Assembly (NCBI GenBank): GCA_017451525.1
Contig: JAFTOD010000003.1
Span: 62,001-126,000, forward strand
Direction of reading: 5' to 3'
DNA: 64,000 nt
Source of the DNA: Paludibacteraceae bacterium
Lineage (GTDB): Bacteria; Bacteroidota; Bacteroidia; Bacteroidales; Paludibacteraceae
Part shown: positions 3,315-59,476 of the stretch, piece by piece
How positions within the stretch are numbered: position 1 is the stretch's first letter
How the letters are laid out: each line of letters starts with the position of its first letter
Made by a program: the position numbers and the translations under genes
The notes under the pieces: model-generated
Seen by the model: only the letters and a program-made list of their open reading frames with translations
Databases searched by the model: none
What the model was told of the DNA's origin: nothing

Positions 3315-3782
3315 TTAGCATTTCAGTACGAGGATGTCACGCAGATTGGTGGTGTAGCAAGGAGAGGGTTTCTCGCGTTTGGTAAGCGGTTTGTTCGTGC
3401 TGAGCACTTGCATGGCTACTTTGACTGCTGTTTTGCCATACTGGTTGTTGATATGGTCGATGGCTTTCTGTAGTCGCTCATCGCGCTCCTTGGGGCGCTC
3501 ATCAAAGAGAATCTGCTGGGCATTGTCTGCTGGAGTGAGACTCATCAGTACTACGCCCGCTTTCTTGTAGGGGTAGGGCTTCCATAGCTTGCGTATGGCT
3601 GCAAGCATGTAGCCAACTAGTTCGGCTGTGATAGCCGTCGGGAAGGGTAGTGTCACTACTTGATGAATTACCTGCATTTCCTCCTCGGCAAAGCGCGAGG
3701 TATGCGCATAAACGATAAACTGGCGACATAGACTGCGCTGTTTGCCCATGTTGTGGGCGGTGGATATGTCGGTTAGTTTCAT
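3315..3782 (-). pseudogene. C-terminal remnant of a UmuC-type Y-family DNA polymerase (little-finger end plus DUF4113)
   Basis: The 155-aa product matches only the last third of UmuC as I know the family: part of the little-finger domain (VVTLPFPTAI) followed by the DUF4113 tail (YKKAGVVLMSLTPADNAQQILFDE, then SPCYTTNLRDILVL). The palm with the catalytic acidic residues and the fingers are absent, so it cannot polymerise DNA. An in-frame TGA sits 9 bp before the ATG, so the start is well bounded. It nevertheless has an intact consensus promoter about 55 bp upstream and an uninterrupted frame, so a small expressed tail protein is an alternative to a decayed gene. No umuD is adjacent. Confidence 0.75.
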
Positions 3783-3867: not shown

Positions 3868-4087
3868 GGATTTTTTGTAAAAATTCACTTCTGCGGTTAA
3901 AAATAATGCTTTTAGCCGCAAAATATGCGTCTTATTAGCATTTTTTTAGCCACATTATGAGATGGGAAGCATATACGCTTTATATATCAAAATTTGAATA
4001 TAAAAAGAGCGATACGAGGCATTAGTGTTATAACAATAATTATTGCGCGCTTAATGAAAACAAATATCAATTGGAATATAAATCTAT

Positions 4088-4118
4088 AAACCGAGCGACA
4101 CGCAGTGTTGCTCGGTTT
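4088..4118 (-). terminator. Hairpin terminator downstream of the DUF4465 gene
   Basis: About 14-bp stem (AAACCGAGC at 4088-4096 with GCTCGGTTT at 4110-4118, extended by one G-U and further pairs) with a 3-nt loop. AT-rich on both sides, so possibly bidirectional. Confidence 0.7.
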
Positions 4119-4142
4119 ATATTTACTATATAATTTTTTCGA

Positions 4143-5093
4143 TTACTGGATTTCTGCGCCCATCATGTTATAGGTCTTACCATCGCGGAGGATGAGGAGT
4201 TGACCATTGTAGAGGATTTTTGGGCTTTTAGGCGATGAGGCGATAGGGCTATTAGGTAAGGCGGTATCGTCTTTTGGAAAGCGGACTGCTACATCATCGT
4301 AGGCGAAATAGGCAGGTGCATTGAGTCCCCATTGACCATATAAGTCGTTAGTACCAACGATATTGAAGGCTACAGCATTCACTTCGCCCAAGACAGACAA
4401 ATCCCATTTCTGCCAGTCTGTCAGAAGGCTATCCTTGCCATTGTAGAGGGCAAAAGTAGTGCGGCTGATCTCGTGACCATTGGCATCTTGTCCTACGGCT
4501 ACGGCGTATAACTTGGTTGTGTCGTTGGCAGGGGGATTATAGCCATCACCATACACCAGCGAATTAAGCACATAACAGATGTTGGTGACATACATATGGT
4601 CTATCACGCGTGCCTTGCCGTCGGCAAAGGCGATAGTCTGCATTGAAGTATAGTCTGCATTGTAATCATCTACATGACCGTTGTGTACGCAGAAGTTCTT
4701 GGAGCCATTGTTGCCGCCTTGAAGGGTAGCGAATTGGAGTTCGTACCATGCGGTGTTAGCAGGTAGATCGTTGTTGGTGAAGCCAGGGGTGGTGAAGTTG
4801 GAGATGGCATGTCCACCATTCCAATAAGGTGCTGTAAAACTGTGGGTTAGTAGGGTGTTCTGCGCATCGCACCATGTGTAAACACCGCCTGCGGTGTAGG
4901 TGAGGGTGCCATTGTACTGCGCATCGTCCACGAGGTCAGACCATGTGGAGATGGTGCGGTTGGCATAGTCGAGGGTGTAAGGCGCAAACTGAGCATCCGC
5001 ATCCTCGAAAGTCAGGGTTCGTAACTCGTAGTCCTCCGCCATGAGGGCTACATTCATCAGGCATAAAGCCGCAAGAAAGAATGATTTCTTCAT
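4143..5093 (-). CDS. Secreted DUF4465 protein, candidate B12-responsive surface protein
   Basis: 316-aa exported protein: signal peptide MKKSFFLAALCLMNVALMA, then a DUF4465-like domain beginning TLTFEDADAQF with the 'YNG..Y..CDAQNT' core, and a short C-terminal module KILYNGQLLILRDGKTYNMMGAEIQ that resembles the tail of the endonuclease at 19168-21042. A cobalamin riboswitch on the same strand lies about 330 nt upstream with no other convincing gene between, so the gene is probably repressed by adenosylcobalamin. DUF4465 proteins recur, to my knowledge, in Bacteroides corrinoid-uptake loci, which would suit a corrinoid-binding role; this is inference. A dispersed repeat (4221-4258) encodes the PNSPIASSPKSPK linker before the tail. 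The longer frame to 5123 would add only repeat-derived residues, so MKKSFF is preferred. Confidence 0.75.
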   Translation of the reverse strand: MKKSFFLAALCLMNVALMAEDYELRTLTFEDADAQFAPYTLDYANRTISTWSDLVDDAQYNGTLTYTAGGVYTWCDAQNTLLTHSFTAPYWNGGHAISNFTTPGFTNNDLPANTAWYELQFATLQGGNNGSKNFCVHNGHVDDYNADYTSMQTIAFADGKARVIDHMYVTNICYVLNSLVYGDGYNPPANDTTKLYAVAVGQDANGHEISRTTFALYNGKDSLLTDWQKWDLSVLGEVNAVAFNIVGTNDLYGQWGLNAPAYFAYDDVAVRFPKDDTALPNSPIASSPKSPKILYNGQLLILRDGKTYNMMGAEIQ

Positions 5094-5127
5094 GTTGGTT
5101 TGTTGATTAAAATGGTTATACAAAATG

Positions 5128-5169
5128 GTTCAACATTGTTCAACAGTAGTTCAACATTGTTCAACGATT
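5128..5169. repeat. Tandem 10/11-bp array GTTCAACATT
   Basis: Four units (10, 11, 10, 11 bp) of GTTCAACATT / GTTCAACAGTA, forming a 21-bp repeat twice. It lies immediately upstream of the DUF4465 start, inside its expected leader. Confidence 0.85.
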
Positions 5170-5188
5170 GTTTGGTTTGCGTGTATAA

Positions 5189-5266
5189 CCACACCTCCCT
5201 GACCATCTACTTCGGATTTTCCCAAATGCGAAGTAACATGGCAGGGTGACGGTCAGGGGTGTGTGG
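5189..5266 (-). repeat. Long imperfect inverted repeat in the riboswitch-DUF4465 leader
   Basis: The outer arms (5189-5204 and 5251-5266) pair over 16 bp with two mismatches; an inner stem pairs ACTTCG with CGAAGT. In the minus-strand RNA this is a ~78-nt hairpin between the cobalamin aptamer and the DUF4465 start codon. No U-tract follows, so it is not a standard terminator. Bases 5207-5392 are also open in one frame but look non-coding. Confidence 0.6.
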
Positions 5267-5423
5267 ATAGGCGTTTTGACTCCCGAGAAACACACTGACC
5301 ATCGGACACAACAAATGGGTACTTGATACATCTATCAAATACCTATACGCGTACAAGCGTACCATAGATACTATTGAAAACCTTTGCGTCATTGTCGTTG
5401 GCTCGATTCCCCGAGAGCGTTCA

Positions 5424-5585
5424 ACTTCACCAATTTGTTGGTGGCACGCAGCAGGTCTTCTGACTTATCGCTCCTTTTGTTCAGCCTTCCCAACCCGTTA
5501 AGGGTCAGTGACTTTCAAGATTTTGAACATCGGATTGCGAATCACAGCAGCGGGACTGTGCAGGAATTGCACCTGCTTCCCTTGA
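5424..5585 (-). promoter_or_regulatory. Cobalamin (B12) riboswitch
   Basis: Minus-strand RNA carries the hallmark elements of the cobalamin aptamer: GCAGGTGCAATTCC then CAGTCCCGC and GCTGTGATTCGC (5' half, about 5540-5582), and AGTCAGAAGACCTGC (the B12-box side, about 5448-5464). A hairpin with arms CACCAA/TTGGTG near 5426-5442 could provide the kissing loop. It starts about 15 nt after a consensus promoter and reads toward the DUF4465 gene. A covariance search with the Rfam cobalamin model should return a strong hit. Confidence 0.92.
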
Positions 5586-5597
5586 CTGAATGCGGTG

Positions 5598-5628
5598 CAA
5601 AGGTACAATTAATTTTTGATATATGCAA
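5598..5628 (-). promoter_or_regulatory. Promoter of the cobalamin riboswitch transcript
   Basis: Minus-strand TTGCATAT (5628-5621) and TACCTTTG (5605-5598), N20 spacing. A 9-bp AAAAATCGC/GCGATTTTT hairpin (5630-5655) abuts the upstream edge. Confidence 0.85.
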
Positions 5629-6984: not shown

Positions 6985-8064
6985 TTACTTTTTTGAAGTT
7001 GGGACTATAAATGTAAAAGAATTACCTTCACTTTTTGTATAGCCCTTATAAGTAGAATTCCAATATAAATTAGTAGGTTTTCTTTTATATAATCTGCTTT
7101 GGCTCAAAACCCTATATGTTTTATAAAAAGAGGTCTCATCTCCAACTGTAATATATGCATCATAAACGATAGGCTGATACTTTTGCGCTTGAATTTCTTT
7201 AGGAGTCAAAATATTTTCACATATTTTTTCTCGTTCTACATATTCTGTAATATCTTGTTTAACATAATTCGCGATTTCGCAAATATAGAATTCATTTTCA
7301 ATACTTTGTAACTGTGAATCTTCGCCAATCTTGAATGTTATATAGTTACCAAATGTCATAGGAGTTGTCAATTCTGAATAAGTTATTTTATCAGACTCTT
7401 CAGGGTAATATTTTAAGTCACAACTAATAATCTCATTTGAGATAATAGAGAAGTTATTAACAAATTTAGAAGATTTAGGAGGTATCGCTAAGATAGGGGT
7501 GTTAGAGGTAGAAATGCTAGTAGAATGTCCTATCATTGATGTTGCGGTTGAAGCTCCAAATAGCATTGCGCCATAAGACTTTGATGCTCCAAGTGTAGCA
7601 CTAGATGCCATTGGGTCATACTGAGTTAATGGATTTATACCAAAGTTTCCTGCGTAATATTGCGAAATAGATGCTGAATATGAGCGAGTTGCAGAAAGGT
7701 TGTATCCTTTGGTATGAGAAATAGAGGCGTTAGAACTTTCGGTTTCCGTTACTGTCTGATCTTGATAATAATCATATGCTATTCCATTTTTAATAAAGAA
7801 GGTCTTACTTAAATCTAAATAAATGATTTTATCAGTTTTGTTATAAAATTCAAAACCAGCATCACCACCATCGCTCCAAAATTTGTAAAATACAGCACAA
7901 TTATCATCTTCATACAATAATCCACCATTTACTTGAGAAATTGAAGATGACTGATTAATAGGCTTTGCAGATAACATTTGGATGTAATCGTAATAAGTGC
8001 CACATGATGGTAGTAGAAGGGCAAAACAAGCAGTTACTAAATAAACTAAATTTGTTTTTCTCAT
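6985..8064 (-). CDS. Predicted lipoprotein of unknown function
   Basis: 359-aa protein with a clear lipobox (signal helix then LLPSC-GTYYDYIQML), so an outer- or inner-membrane lipoprotein. The middle (about residues 120-190) is rich in Ser/Ala/Thr/Tyr ('SNASISHTKGYNLSATRSYSASIS', 'SATLGASKSYGAMLFGASTATS'); the C-terminal half is mixed alpha/beta with no motif I recognise. ATG 8064 gives a proper signal peptide; the frame extends further upstream without one. No TAnnTTTG box lies in front; instead a large structured RNA with a terminator-like hairpin (8167-8335) precedes it, so attenuation is possible. Confidence 0.75.
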   Translation of the reverse strand: MRKTNLVYLVTACFALLLPSCGTYYDYIQMLSAKPINQSSSISQVNGGLLYEDDNCAVFYKFWSDGGDAGFEFYNKTDKIIYLDLSKTFFIKNGIAYDYYQDQTVTETESSNASISHTKGYNLSATRSYSASISQYYAGNFGINPLTQYDPMASSATLGASKSYGAMLFGASTATSMIGHSTSISTSNTPILAIPPKSSKFVNNFSIISNEIISCDLKYYPEESDKITYSELTTPMTFGNYITFKIGEDSQLQSIENEFYICEIANYVKQDITEYVEREKICENILTPKEIQAQKYQPIVYDAYITVGDETSFYKTYRVLSQSRLYKRKPTNLYWNSTYKGYTKSEGNSFTFIVPTSKK

Positions 8065-8166
8065 AATATTAAATTTTATTCTGCCTACTCTTTGTCGGAT
8101 TTTCGGCATGCTCCGTTTATGAATAATTTGATTTGTTGTTTGATTTTGAATCCATTAATATATACG

Positions 8167-19167: not shown

Positions 19168-21042
19168 ATGAAACATCTTTCTCTTCTTCTCATTTCCATC
19201 TTTGCAATTGGACAATCCTTTGCTTTCAATTGCCATGTCACCCCTGCCGATTCATTGCCTGCATACTATGCCTCTATTGATGGCACAAGTGGCAAAGAAC
19301 TTTTATCGGCGATCCAACAAGTGGCTAAGATAGGCTACCGAACTACTGACTTCCGCTATGACAGCGTATGGCTTGCATTCAAATACACTGATATTCGTCC
19401 TGATGGACTAATCTGGGAGATATATAGCGATTGCAACTTCGAGTACGAAAAAGATCGCACATCCAATACGAGCCAAACAGGAGAATGCAAAGGCTACAAC
19501 CGCGAACATGCCATGTGCCAATCGTGGTTTGGAAAAAAAAGCAATGAGGATTTATATGATTTGCATGGAAATAAAGCAAGTTCGAGCATGAAGAATACTC
19601 CTGGCTCAGACATCTTCCATATTTATCCTGCCAGCTATGGCATGAATAGTCGCCGTGGTAATCGTCCGTATGGCGAAGTGCTTACTGCTGCAAACACCTC
19701 TGGCAATGGCACCAAGTATGGTACGCCTGTTACCACGAAGTCTGTTACTAATAGCATAGCAGGAGCGTATGTAGAGGGAACAATAACAGTGAGCACCAAT
19801 GTGTTGGAACCTGCTGACGAATACAAAGGCGACATCGCACGTAGTTATTTCGGCACGATGGTCAAGTGGGCAGGCGAATGGGCATTCAATAAAAACGAAT
19901 TAGGAAATGTGATTTTCGATGCTACTATCGATGCAGATACACACTATGGTCCAGAGAATAACTATGGTTTTACTGACTATGGACTGGCTCTGATGCTCAG
20001 TTGGCACCGCCAAGACCCTGTGTCGCAAAAAGAGGTGGATCGCAACAATGGTATCCAGAAGACACAAGGCAATCGCAATCCATTCATTGACTATCCTTAT
20101 CTCGCTGAGTTCATTTGGGGTGAGAAGTCAGGACAAGTACTGGATTTTGATCAACTGCTTTGTTCTACAGACGAACTTTTCGAACTGGGGGTTAGCAAAG
20201 GTTATTTGGGCGAAGTGCAAGATATGCAATTAGATACCATCTTATGGATGGTCGGTGACACACAATACGATTGCACATACCATCTCCATGGTAGCAAAGT
20301 GAAAAACTTGCCCGGAGCTCCTTCTTCATGCAGTGCAACCAGTTCTACTTTCATGGGTTGGACCGACAGCCCTATGACGGAGGTCAGTGCTGATGCGCCT
20401 ATTATTTTATATACTAAAGTCGCTGATTTTCCTGCGATCAATACCAACACTGCTTACTACGCAGTCTTCGCACAGAAAACAACCTCAGAAATTATCGGAC
20501 AAACCATAACGCTCAATAAAGCAGATTCTACAGATTGGACACTCACCAACCTCAAGCAAAAGTCCAATAATACCGACGGCGCATACTGGTTACTCGTTAA
20601 AGATGCATCCATCACTTCGCCTGTGATTGACCTACAAACACTCGATTCTATTGCAATGAATATACGTAGTTATCAAAGCAAAACTACTGTATCTATCTCT
20701 GTTAATGGTAATTCACTTGGTACACTCTCTGCTGAGACCAACAGCATACAGCGCTACGTATGGTCAGCACCTGAACTAACGGGCAGCCAATCTGTAACCT
20801 TCACTGGCATAAACGGTACGGCAAGTTACGGAGTTGGAATCAATGCCATTTCGTTGTATTTAGGTGGTGCAAAGGCTACTTACACCAATTACCTCACCCA
20901 TTGCGATGATGGACCTGCTACTTTATTAACGACACCTAATGTCAATAATTCGATACGCAAGATTATTCGCAACGGACAATTGCTAATCATACACAATGGT
21001 CAAATTTATAATACCCTCGGCAACAATATTGAACAATTTTGA
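19168..21042 (+). CDS. Secreted endonuclease I-family nuclease with C-terminal sorting-like tail
   Basis: 624 aa with signal peptide (MKHLSLLLISIFAIGQSFA). Residues ~85-330 form an Endonuclease_1 domain: GYNREHAMCQSWF (catalytic His) and 'SDIFHIYPASYGMNSRRGNRPYGEV'. The middle carries a cysteine-containing repeat-like region (GAPSSCSATSSTFMGWTD) and a beta-rich domain. The C-terminus KIIRNGQLLIIHNGQIYNTLGNNIEQF resembles the tail of the DUF4465 protein and is probably a short T9SS-type sorting module, so the enzyme is likely surface-bound or released to scavenge extracellular DNA. lpd follows after 9 bp. Confidence 0.88.
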   Translation: MKHLSLLLISIFAIGQSFAFNCHVTPADSLPAYYASIDGTSGKELLSAIQQVAKIGYRTTDFRYDSVWLAFKYTDIRPDGLIWEIYSDCNFEYEKDRTSNTSQTGECKGYNREHAMCQSWFGKKSNEDLYDLHGNKASSSMKNTPGSDIFHIYPASYGMNSRRGNRPYGEVLTAANTSGNGTKYGTPVTTKSVTNSIAGAYVEGTITVSTNVLEPADEYKGDIARSYFGTMVKWAGEWAFNKNELGNVIFDATIDADTHYGPENNYGFTDYGLALMLSWHRQDPVSQKEVDRNNGIQKTQGNRNPFIDYPYLAEFIWGEKSGQVLDFDQLLCSTDELFELGVSKGYLGEVQDMQLDTILWMVGDTQYDCTYHLHGSKVKNLPGAPSSCSATSSTFMGWTDSPMTEVSADAPIILYTKVADFPAINTNTAYYAVFAQKTTSEIIGQTITLNKADSTDWTLTNLKQKSNNTDGAYWLLVKDASITSPVIDLQTLDSIAMNIRSYQSKTTVSISVNGNSLGTLSAETNSIQRYVWSAPELTGSQSVTFTGINGTASYGVGINAISLYLGGAKATYTNYLTHCDDGPATLLTTPNVNNSIRKIIRNGQLLIIHNGQIYNTLGNNIEQF

Positions 21043-58984: not shown

Positions 58985-59476
58985 TTATTGTTTAATTACT
59001 TGGAAAGATTGATTGCCACTGAGTAGCAAGTAATTCCCCGTTGGCAACTCTGCCATATCTACTTGTGCAGAGCCATTCTCTACTGCCTGTGTTACCACCA
59101 AACGACCATCCATAGAGTACAAGCGCAACACATCACCTTGCGCATGCTCCACCATTAACACATCCTGCGTAGGGTTGGGATACACTTTTACCTGCAAGGC
59201 ATTGTTACCCTGTGTATTCTCCACATTGGTAGGCGTACTTGGCTGCTCATCCGAGAAGCGGATATGTTGCACGTTGGCGAGCAAGTCGCTGAATACCACA
59301 TTTTTGGCAACGTCATATACATACAGCGAGTCACCCGAATACACTACCTTGCCTATACTGCCTAAGGCAGTGATACACTCTTTGCCACTTAGGGGTTTGA
59401 CTACCAGAGAGGGGATAATAGCCCACGCCTGTGAAGAACAAAGCAATGCACAAATGAGAATAAACTTATTCTTCAT
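58985..59476 (-). CDS. Secreted protein with T9SS type A sorting domain
   Basis: 163 aa: signal peptide MKNKFILICALLCSSQAWA, a short N-terminal domain ('PLSGKECITALGSIGKVVYSGDSLYVYDVAKNVVFSDLLANVQHIRFSDE'), and a C-terminal type A sorting domain 'VKVYPNPTQDVLMVEHAQGDVLRLYSMDGRLVV...MAELPTGNYLLLSGNQSFQVIKQ'. The SLYVYD...V.NIRFSD-type domain is often paired with FISUMP proteins. Probably exported by the T9SS whose plug protein is at 40957. Confidence 0.88.
   Translation of the reverse strand: MKNKFILICALLCSSQAWAIIPSLVVKPLSGKECITALGSIGKVVYSGDSLYVYDVAKNVVFSDLLANVQHIRFSDEQPSTPTNVENTQGNNALQVKVYPNPTQDVLMVEHAQGDVLRLYSMDGRLVVTQAVENGSAQVDMAELPTGNYLLLSGNQSFQVIKQ

Follow-up and report, generated by a model that had tools for sequence, protein, structure and literature searches.

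A free-standing cobalamin riboswitch unit for a candidate BtuJ-type corrinoid-capture protein in Paludibacteraceae

The window analyzed here is a 64-kb stretch of DNA from a Paludibacteraceae bacterium, in which a cobalamin riboswitch stands upstream of a single gene for an exported DUF4465 protein. With a probability of roughly 0.78, we read this locus as a free-standing btuJ unit, i.e., a B12-repressed gene for an exported corrinoid-capture protein that would hand over its ligand to BtuG/BtuB-type systems. At low B12 the unit would be expressed and the DUF4465 protein exported via the Sec pathway; its C-terminal tail, in lieu of a lipid anchor, would help to place it at or beyond the outer membrane, and its beta-jellyroll loops would bind corrin, to be passed to BtuG/BtuB-type systems encoded elsewhere in the genome. 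The observation behind the initial annotation was confirmed, and its main interpretation, which is partly supported, appears correct and was already known for the DUF4465 family. Three modest novelties are added, namely the solitary unit, a tail that seems to replace the lipid anchor, and a structured leader. The unit is composed of the following elements.

5598-5628, minus strand: Bacteroidota-type promoter, TTG at 5628 and TACCTTTG at 5605-5598, read from the sequence
5433-5605, minus strand: cobalamin riboswitch aptamer RF00174 (87.4 bits, E 3.4e-20)
4143-5093, minus strand: DUF4465 (BtuJ-type) exported protein of 316 amino acids (aa), signal peptide at approximately residues 1-19
4143-4223, minus strand: genus-specific C-terminal tail (KILYNGQLLILRDGKTYNMMGAEIQ), from sequence patterns and profile searches

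The well-formed aptamer initially placed at 5424-5600 was recovered by the Rfam model at 5605-5433 on the minus strand, over its full length (model positions 1-189 of 189) and far above the gathering score of 31.5; no other RF00174 match in the window passes the threshold, and the genome as a whole has four. A promoter of the unit's own was also upheld, as the TTG/TACCTTTG element, which resembles the Bacteroidota-type consensus, lies directly 5' of the aptamer. The CTTTGCA motif was present in 12 of the 14 leader slices holding the platform and absent from those of loci L070 and L072, the latter slice being incomplete.

As originally described, the unit leads into a 316-aa exported DUF4465 protein running from ATG 5093 to the stop at 4143 (an open reading frame [ORF] listing of 326 aa starts at a TTG; the ATG version is used here). 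PF14717 matched residues 90-268 with 109.2 bits (gathering score 25, E 3.9e-31), and the protein has the augmented beta-jellyroll fold of BtuJ-type proteins. The HI-loop and DE-loop tyrosines and the HI motif are present (Y262 in GLNAPAYF, and Y174), with Ala at the place of the motif's Thr, and the ligand tyrosines are invariant among the solitary orthologs. In the accessible text of PMC13398666, eight DUF4465 proteins bind B12, and very tight B12 binding by BtuJ1 and BtuJ2 is described in that of PMC12751083. With B12 binding thus already established for the family, the protein is, as first suggested, a good candidate corrinoid-capture factor. A lipobox was not found by pattern search, and the signal appears by eye to be of the signal peptidase I type, in agreement with the earlier claim that a lipid anchor is missing. 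Two observations weigh against the proposed function: where BtuJ2 has Thr292, the fourth of the ligand residues in common, the window protein has Ala259, and the protein is without a lipoprotein signal, whereas BtuJ1 and BtuJ2 of Bacteroides thetaiotaomicron are lipoproteins. As far as its accessible part goes, PMC13398666 gives signal peptides only for its selected DUF4465 members. For the window protein, B12 binding, repression by B12, surface location and corrin hand-over are predictions from sequence.

The description of the DUF4465 gene as lone holds for the window, where eight Btu-type queries gave no match (tblastn, E 1e-4), but not for the genome (G000; 1.84 Mb, 84% complete), which contains four cobalamin riboswitches, three DUF4465 genes including two outside the window, and, elsewhere, btuH-, btuG-, btuB-, btuF-, btuC- and btuD-like genes. 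A search of named genomes, from which 80 loci were kept, yielded 11 orthologs (L062-L072) with an open frame and 66-93% identity, labelled Paludibacteraceae or Bacteroidales, for nine of which the record title names ruminant colon, caecum or rectum. Rfam placed a riboswitch upstream of ten; the contig of the eleventh, L068, begins within the leader. As far as the contigs reach, ten of the 11 had no btu-type match in the fetched stretch, the exception being L071, where btuD-, C-, F-, H- and G-like genes adjoin the ortholog in convergent orientation. At least one btuH-, btuG- or btuB-like gene was found in 64 of the 69 other loci; the remaining five are L094, L108, L123, L128 and L130, of which L094 and L130 are short contigs and L108 has btuF and btuC despite lacking such a match. 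On these counts, the solitary arrangement is a conserved trait of one clade.

The C-terminal tail had been taken for a type IX secretion system (T9SS) signal, a claim that was not sustained: no PF18962 or TIGR04183 match was found for the window protein in Pfam and NCBIfam at a maximum E of 1 (TIGR04183 presumably being in the NCBIfam library), and hhalign comparison with T9SS C-terminal domains (CTDs) of the genome and genus (five CTD pieces) gave a probability of 5.6% over 10 columns. A 36-column tail profile (A3), built from this genus such that diverged versions elsewhere could escape it, matched 57 times in this genome. The tail occurred in all 37 genomes of the genus sample, this one included (9-99 each), and in none of 24 genomes of other families of the order (E 0.001), nor, at E 1e-6, in any of a further 197 from the class. 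The window, L008, L009 and 16 further stretches of this genome supplied 19 distinct tail proteins (20 rows, one protein occurring twice; L197 has none). A Sec-type signal was detected by pattern in 17 of them, one of the other two being cut by a contig end; the lipobox pattern occurred in two, the contig-end-cut protein and L194, where it lies within the hydrophobic core.

Lipobox and C-terminal extension (at least 25 aa after the domain) were scored by simple patterns in 74 DUF4465 proteins, five of which were left out for want of a domain-end motif. Among the 69 others, 41 had only a lipobox, 19 only an extension, eight neither and one both (Fisher p 8e-10, relatedness ignored). The single protein with both, L009, has its cysteine inside the hydrophobic core and is probably false, and some of the eight with neither resemble pattern misses, e.g., a signal set far inside by a wrong start. 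L105 and L117, both extension-only, carry longer, CTD-like tails; with these included, the label changes at least four times on the tree. We conclude from these patterns that the tail is probably an export-linked, genus-specific element in place of a lipid anchor, its export route being the T9SS or another. The chance that it is a genuine T9SS sorting signal, which the models miss on account of its shortness or divergence and which brings the protein to the surface by that route, falls somewhat short of even. The near mutual exclusion of extension and lipobox, the Sec-type signals of the tail proteins, the presence of GldM in this genome and that of SprA in 34 of the 36 other genus genomes are in its favor. 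Apart from the failed model and profile comparisons, it is opposed by the occurrence of SprA in 23 of the 24 other-family genomes of the order, none of which has the tail, and by the failure to find SprA (SprA_N) in this genome at 84% completeness. That absence reflects either an assembly gap or true loss.

The window also encodes a 624-aa exported protein with the same C-terminal tail (19168-21042, plus strand), one of the 57 genome matches, and a 163-aa protein ending in a true T9SS CTD (58985-59476, minus strand), of which two similar copies exist elsewhere (L013, L014). In genome G001 (L056, 1717-13331), a cobalamin riboswitch stands before the gene of a 2069-aa protein that carries the genus tail and, close to its end, a DUF4465 domain; 3' of this gene lie a second, weaker cobalamin riboswitch, a TonB-dependent receptor and btuG-/btuH-like matches.

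The riboswitch was initially described as reading into the DUF4465 gene with no TonB receptor, BtuFCD or corrinoid-remodelling gene between. The aptamer does lie upstream, but 340 nucleotides (nt) separate its end from the DUF4465 start, and a 61-codon ORF (5392-5207) begins in between. The leader contains the following elements.

5397-5425, minus strand: P13-like hairpin GTTGAACGCTCTCGGGGAATCGAGCCAAC, identical in 13 aligned leaders
5207-5392, minus strand: 61-codon upstream ORF, ATG directly past the P13-like hairpin, with little, if any, sign that the peptide is under selection
5320-5341, minus strand: hairpin H3, with both partners changed in three pairs and a weakly T-rich stretch after it
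5279-5290, minus strand: segment K, able to pair with the P13 strand
5190-5263, minus strand: X:D hairpin and tip stem, with both partners changed in 3 + 2 pairs; U at 5303-5295 is an alternative partner of X
5182-5190, minus strand: 5' half of a clamp (GGTTATACA), from pairing analysis
5114-5122, minus strand: 3' half of the clamp (TGTATAACC), with 20 nt between it and the DUF4465 ATG

For the window leader, folding gave -91.1 kcal/mol (z -5.3). Across an alignment of 13 leaders (ten solitary, three operon; 243 columns), a structure of K:P13, H2, H3, X:D and tip paired in 93.7% of cells, with eight pairs changed on both sides as compared to 4.0 in shuffles (0 of 500 as high) and 0-2 in slid versions. 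These changes fall in H3, X:D and the tip. P13 and H2 are invariant in the 13 leaders, so that the alignment speaks neither for nor against them, and six of the 12 K:P13 pairs fail in two or three leaders. An alternative U:X hairpin paired in 92.3% of cells but had no pair changed on both sides, and was judged weaker than X:D. The clamp would join the stretch just after D to another whose end lies 18-28 nt 5' of the main ATG, taken for the three operon leaders as the start codon of the btuH-like gene. It reaches at least 8 base pairs (bp) in 13 of 15 leaders and only 6 bp in L067 and L068, and its two sides are jointly altered in the window and L071 relative to the other leaders. Shuffle controls gave 2 to 22 per 1000 in ten leaders, a clear excess, which is weak in L072, L008 and L104 (155, 161 and 158 per 1000). 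TTAACC within 40 nt of the start was found in two of 79 frames, both in the contig-7 B12 operon.

The leader most likely acts indirectly through the upstream ORF, a reading to which we give about even odds. B12 binding would lock the P13-like hairpin and block the start of the ORF; with no ribosomes on it, the leader hairpins would form and either stop transcription (intrinsically or Rho-dependently) or close the DUF4465 start, while at low B12 a ribosome translating the ORF would hold the leader open. In all 14 leaders (of 15) that have it, the P13-like hairpin lies immediately 5' of an ATG, the fifteenth leader being cut, and the first ATG past it opens a short ORF of 46-66 codons in 14 leaders, frameshifted in the fifteenth (L068). 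In the window, this ORF starts approximately 300 nt before DUF4465. To our knowledge, a B12 riboswitch acting through a structured leader and upstream ORF has not been shown so far in Bacteroidota.

Several results speak against this mechanism. The upstream ORF is shortened in two of 15 leaders (L062, 46 codons; L068, by the frameshift). Its variable columns number 26, 26 and 30 of 61 at codon positions 1, 2 and 3 (L072 excluded), and pairwise differences are 15.3, 17.5 and 20.8% (L072 included); a conserved leader peptide was therefore rejected in the codon-position test, which gave at best a slight third-position rise. The ORF stop lies 114 nt from the DUF4465 ATG (5207 versus 5093), which makes simple stop/start coupling impossible. 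Terminator-like matches in the region number two against a shuffle mean of 2.0, and further pair types, one of five covariation measures, were not above shuffles (19 versus 20.2). The main alternative, direct control by transcription termination within the leader (e.g., at H3) with an incidental upstream ORF, is possible but less probable. It would fit the conserved H3, which was flagged as terminator-like and has three pairs changed on both sides, the little coding signal in the ORF, and the proposal, in the accessible text of PMC12751083, that B. thetaiotaomicron B12 riboswitches act by premature termination. It is weakened by the poor T-rich stretch after H3, by a count of terminator-like matches equal to the shuffle mean, and by the recurrent position of the P13-like hairpin before an ATG, which at another riboswitch of this genome is a btuB-like start.

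The P13 pattern (up to two mismatches) occurred, among 61 genomes, four times in this genome, three times in G014, once in G025 and once in another family; sites beside riboswitches were confirmed for all four in this genome and for one of the three in G014. By eye, hairpins like H2/H3 recur past a contig-4 riboswitch (L010, 7742-7780, minus strand), overlapping the likely btuG start. An L5/L13 kissing loop, also examined by eye only, is not claimed, as GAUUC/GAAUC fits the window and the contig-4 riboswitches fit poorly.

The gene appears to be a mosaic, with riboswitch, leader and signal peptide of one origin and the mature domain of another. In a tree built from 60 DUF4465 domains, the window gene and ten of the 11 named orthologs (L068 left out), 11 solitary genes in all, make up a clade (100/100), and a second clade (97/98) comprises four operon copies from the genus; both lie among DUF4465 of Rikenellaceae and other families, mostly lipoproteins in riboswitch-btuHGB-type loci. 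Two blocks of the window leader match the full-operon leader of G014 at 91 and 94% identity, with approximately 150 extra nt between them in G014, and over 360 nt the window leader is 80% identical to the operon leader of its own genome. Codons 1-20 share 92% DNA identity with the operon copy (third positions 90%), falling to 70% in the next 20 codons (third positions 50%) and 33-70% in later blocks. An origin by mere loss of btuHGB from the operon of this genome was at first favored by the leader match but is weakened by the other-clade domain body and the sharp identity drop past codon 20. That the unit is a remnant of a btuHGB operon with no useful function left is improbable. The leader and first ~20 codons are common to the fuller operon, and the same acetyltransferase gene (91%) precedes the full operon in G014 as well as the solitary gene in L064 and L066; against this, the frame is open in all 11 orthologs, the riboswitch is present in ten, the ligand tyrosines are invariant, and the domain body and the operon copy fall in different clades, so that the unit is not a simple deletion remnant. 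That the DUF4465 domain binds something else, such as a glycan, as the resemblance of jellyrolls to carbohydrate-binding modules might suggest, is very improbable.

Upstream of the riboswitch unit lies an acetyltransferase-like gene, its match being below curated cut-offs, and downstream a 155-aa frame (3315-3782, minus strand) that matches only the C-terminal part of UmuC/DNA polymerase V models, scores under their cut-offs and has the appearance of a fragment. One further element lies between.

4085-4121, no strand assigned: 17-bp inverted repeat just past the DUF4465 gene, a possible terminator, flagged by the scan on the plus strand only

The two B12 enzymes reported for the window were verified as MutAB (MutA, TIGR00642; MutB, NF006944) and NrdJ (TIGR02504). 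An Rfam DUF805b RNA (RF02914, 43.8 bits) lies at 8082-8116 on the minus strand, at the start of the 6985-8109 frame, with a further match in L064. Elsewhere in the genome, the contig-7 operon is ordered riboswitch, btuH-like (PKD-domain), btuG-like (DUF5074), btuB-like receptor (Plug domain) and DUF4465, and contig 4 carries two riboswitches ahead of btuG-/btuH-like genes, a binding protein, a FecCD permease, an ATP-binding cassette ATPase and a second receptor. BtuG-like (DUF5074) and btuH-like genes of this genome lie at L008 and L010; btuH-like is a name given by position and similarity, since in the L008 copy Pfam finds no domains beyond PKD-like and other Ig-type ones. A frameshift joining btuG-like and btuH-like frames at L010 and L071, suspected from ORF lists, was dismissed, as tblastn resolved two separate genes. 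A new family considered for recurring neighbors in L051, L052, L057 and L061 (SPYISRVFEYRPAPGQF...) was likewise dropped; these are now regarded as BtuH-like because the L052 member matches mostly btuH-query stretches in most of the 80 loci.

For gut Bacteroidota, B12 capture is one of the principal fields of competition, and the BtuJ proteins examined in B. thetaiotaomicron, in the accessible text of PMC12751083, carry lipid anchors and are expressed from uptake operons. If the reading is true, a solitary BtuJ with a tail would mean that capture can be regulated and exported separately from uptake. The exchange of lipobox for tail offers a clean comparative test of the tail's role, and the leader provides a B12 riboswitch whose supposed action on its gene through an upstream ORF can be tested. 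A broader proposal is offered as speculative and rather unlikely as a whole: that the tail, unlike known T9SS domains, replaced lipidation for surface placement or release in one hindgut Paludibacteraceae genus, that at least two DUF4465 lineages were re-fitted, and that the solitary btuJ would be a non-lipidated scavenger under a riboswitch acting via a structured 340-nt leader and upstream ORF. Of the literature matches listed, with subscription papers and preprints mostly outside the search, none described a BtuJ that is solitary or tailed, nor a Bacteroidota B12 riboswitch with an upstream ORF under it.

Compared to BtuJ1 and BtuJ2 of B. thetaiotaomicron (BT_1491, BT_1957; DUF4465/IPR027828), the window protein is no lipoprotein and has a C-terminal tail, and its gene has the riboswitch to itself instead of lying within an uptake operon. 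The surface lipoproteins BtuG and BtuH are likewise exported Bacteroidota B12-capture proteins from riboswitch loci, but their domains differ from DUF4465. T9SS CTDs (PF18962, TIGR04183) resemble the tail as C-terminal additions to Sec-exported Bacteroidota proteins with a common YxxG pattern; unlike them, the tail measures approximately 26 aa against a 75-position model, matches no model, and was found in only one genus among the genomes searched. The leader is reminiscent of ppe2 of Mycobacterium tuberculosis, where, in the accessible text of PMC11260477, a B12 riboswitch hairpin lies at the start of a short upstream ORF before the main gene (in the window, by sequence position only), and translation of that ORF is needed for main gene expression. 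Stop and start codons overlap in ppe2, as far as that text goes, whereas they are 114 nt apart in the window leader; coupling must therefore differ between the two.
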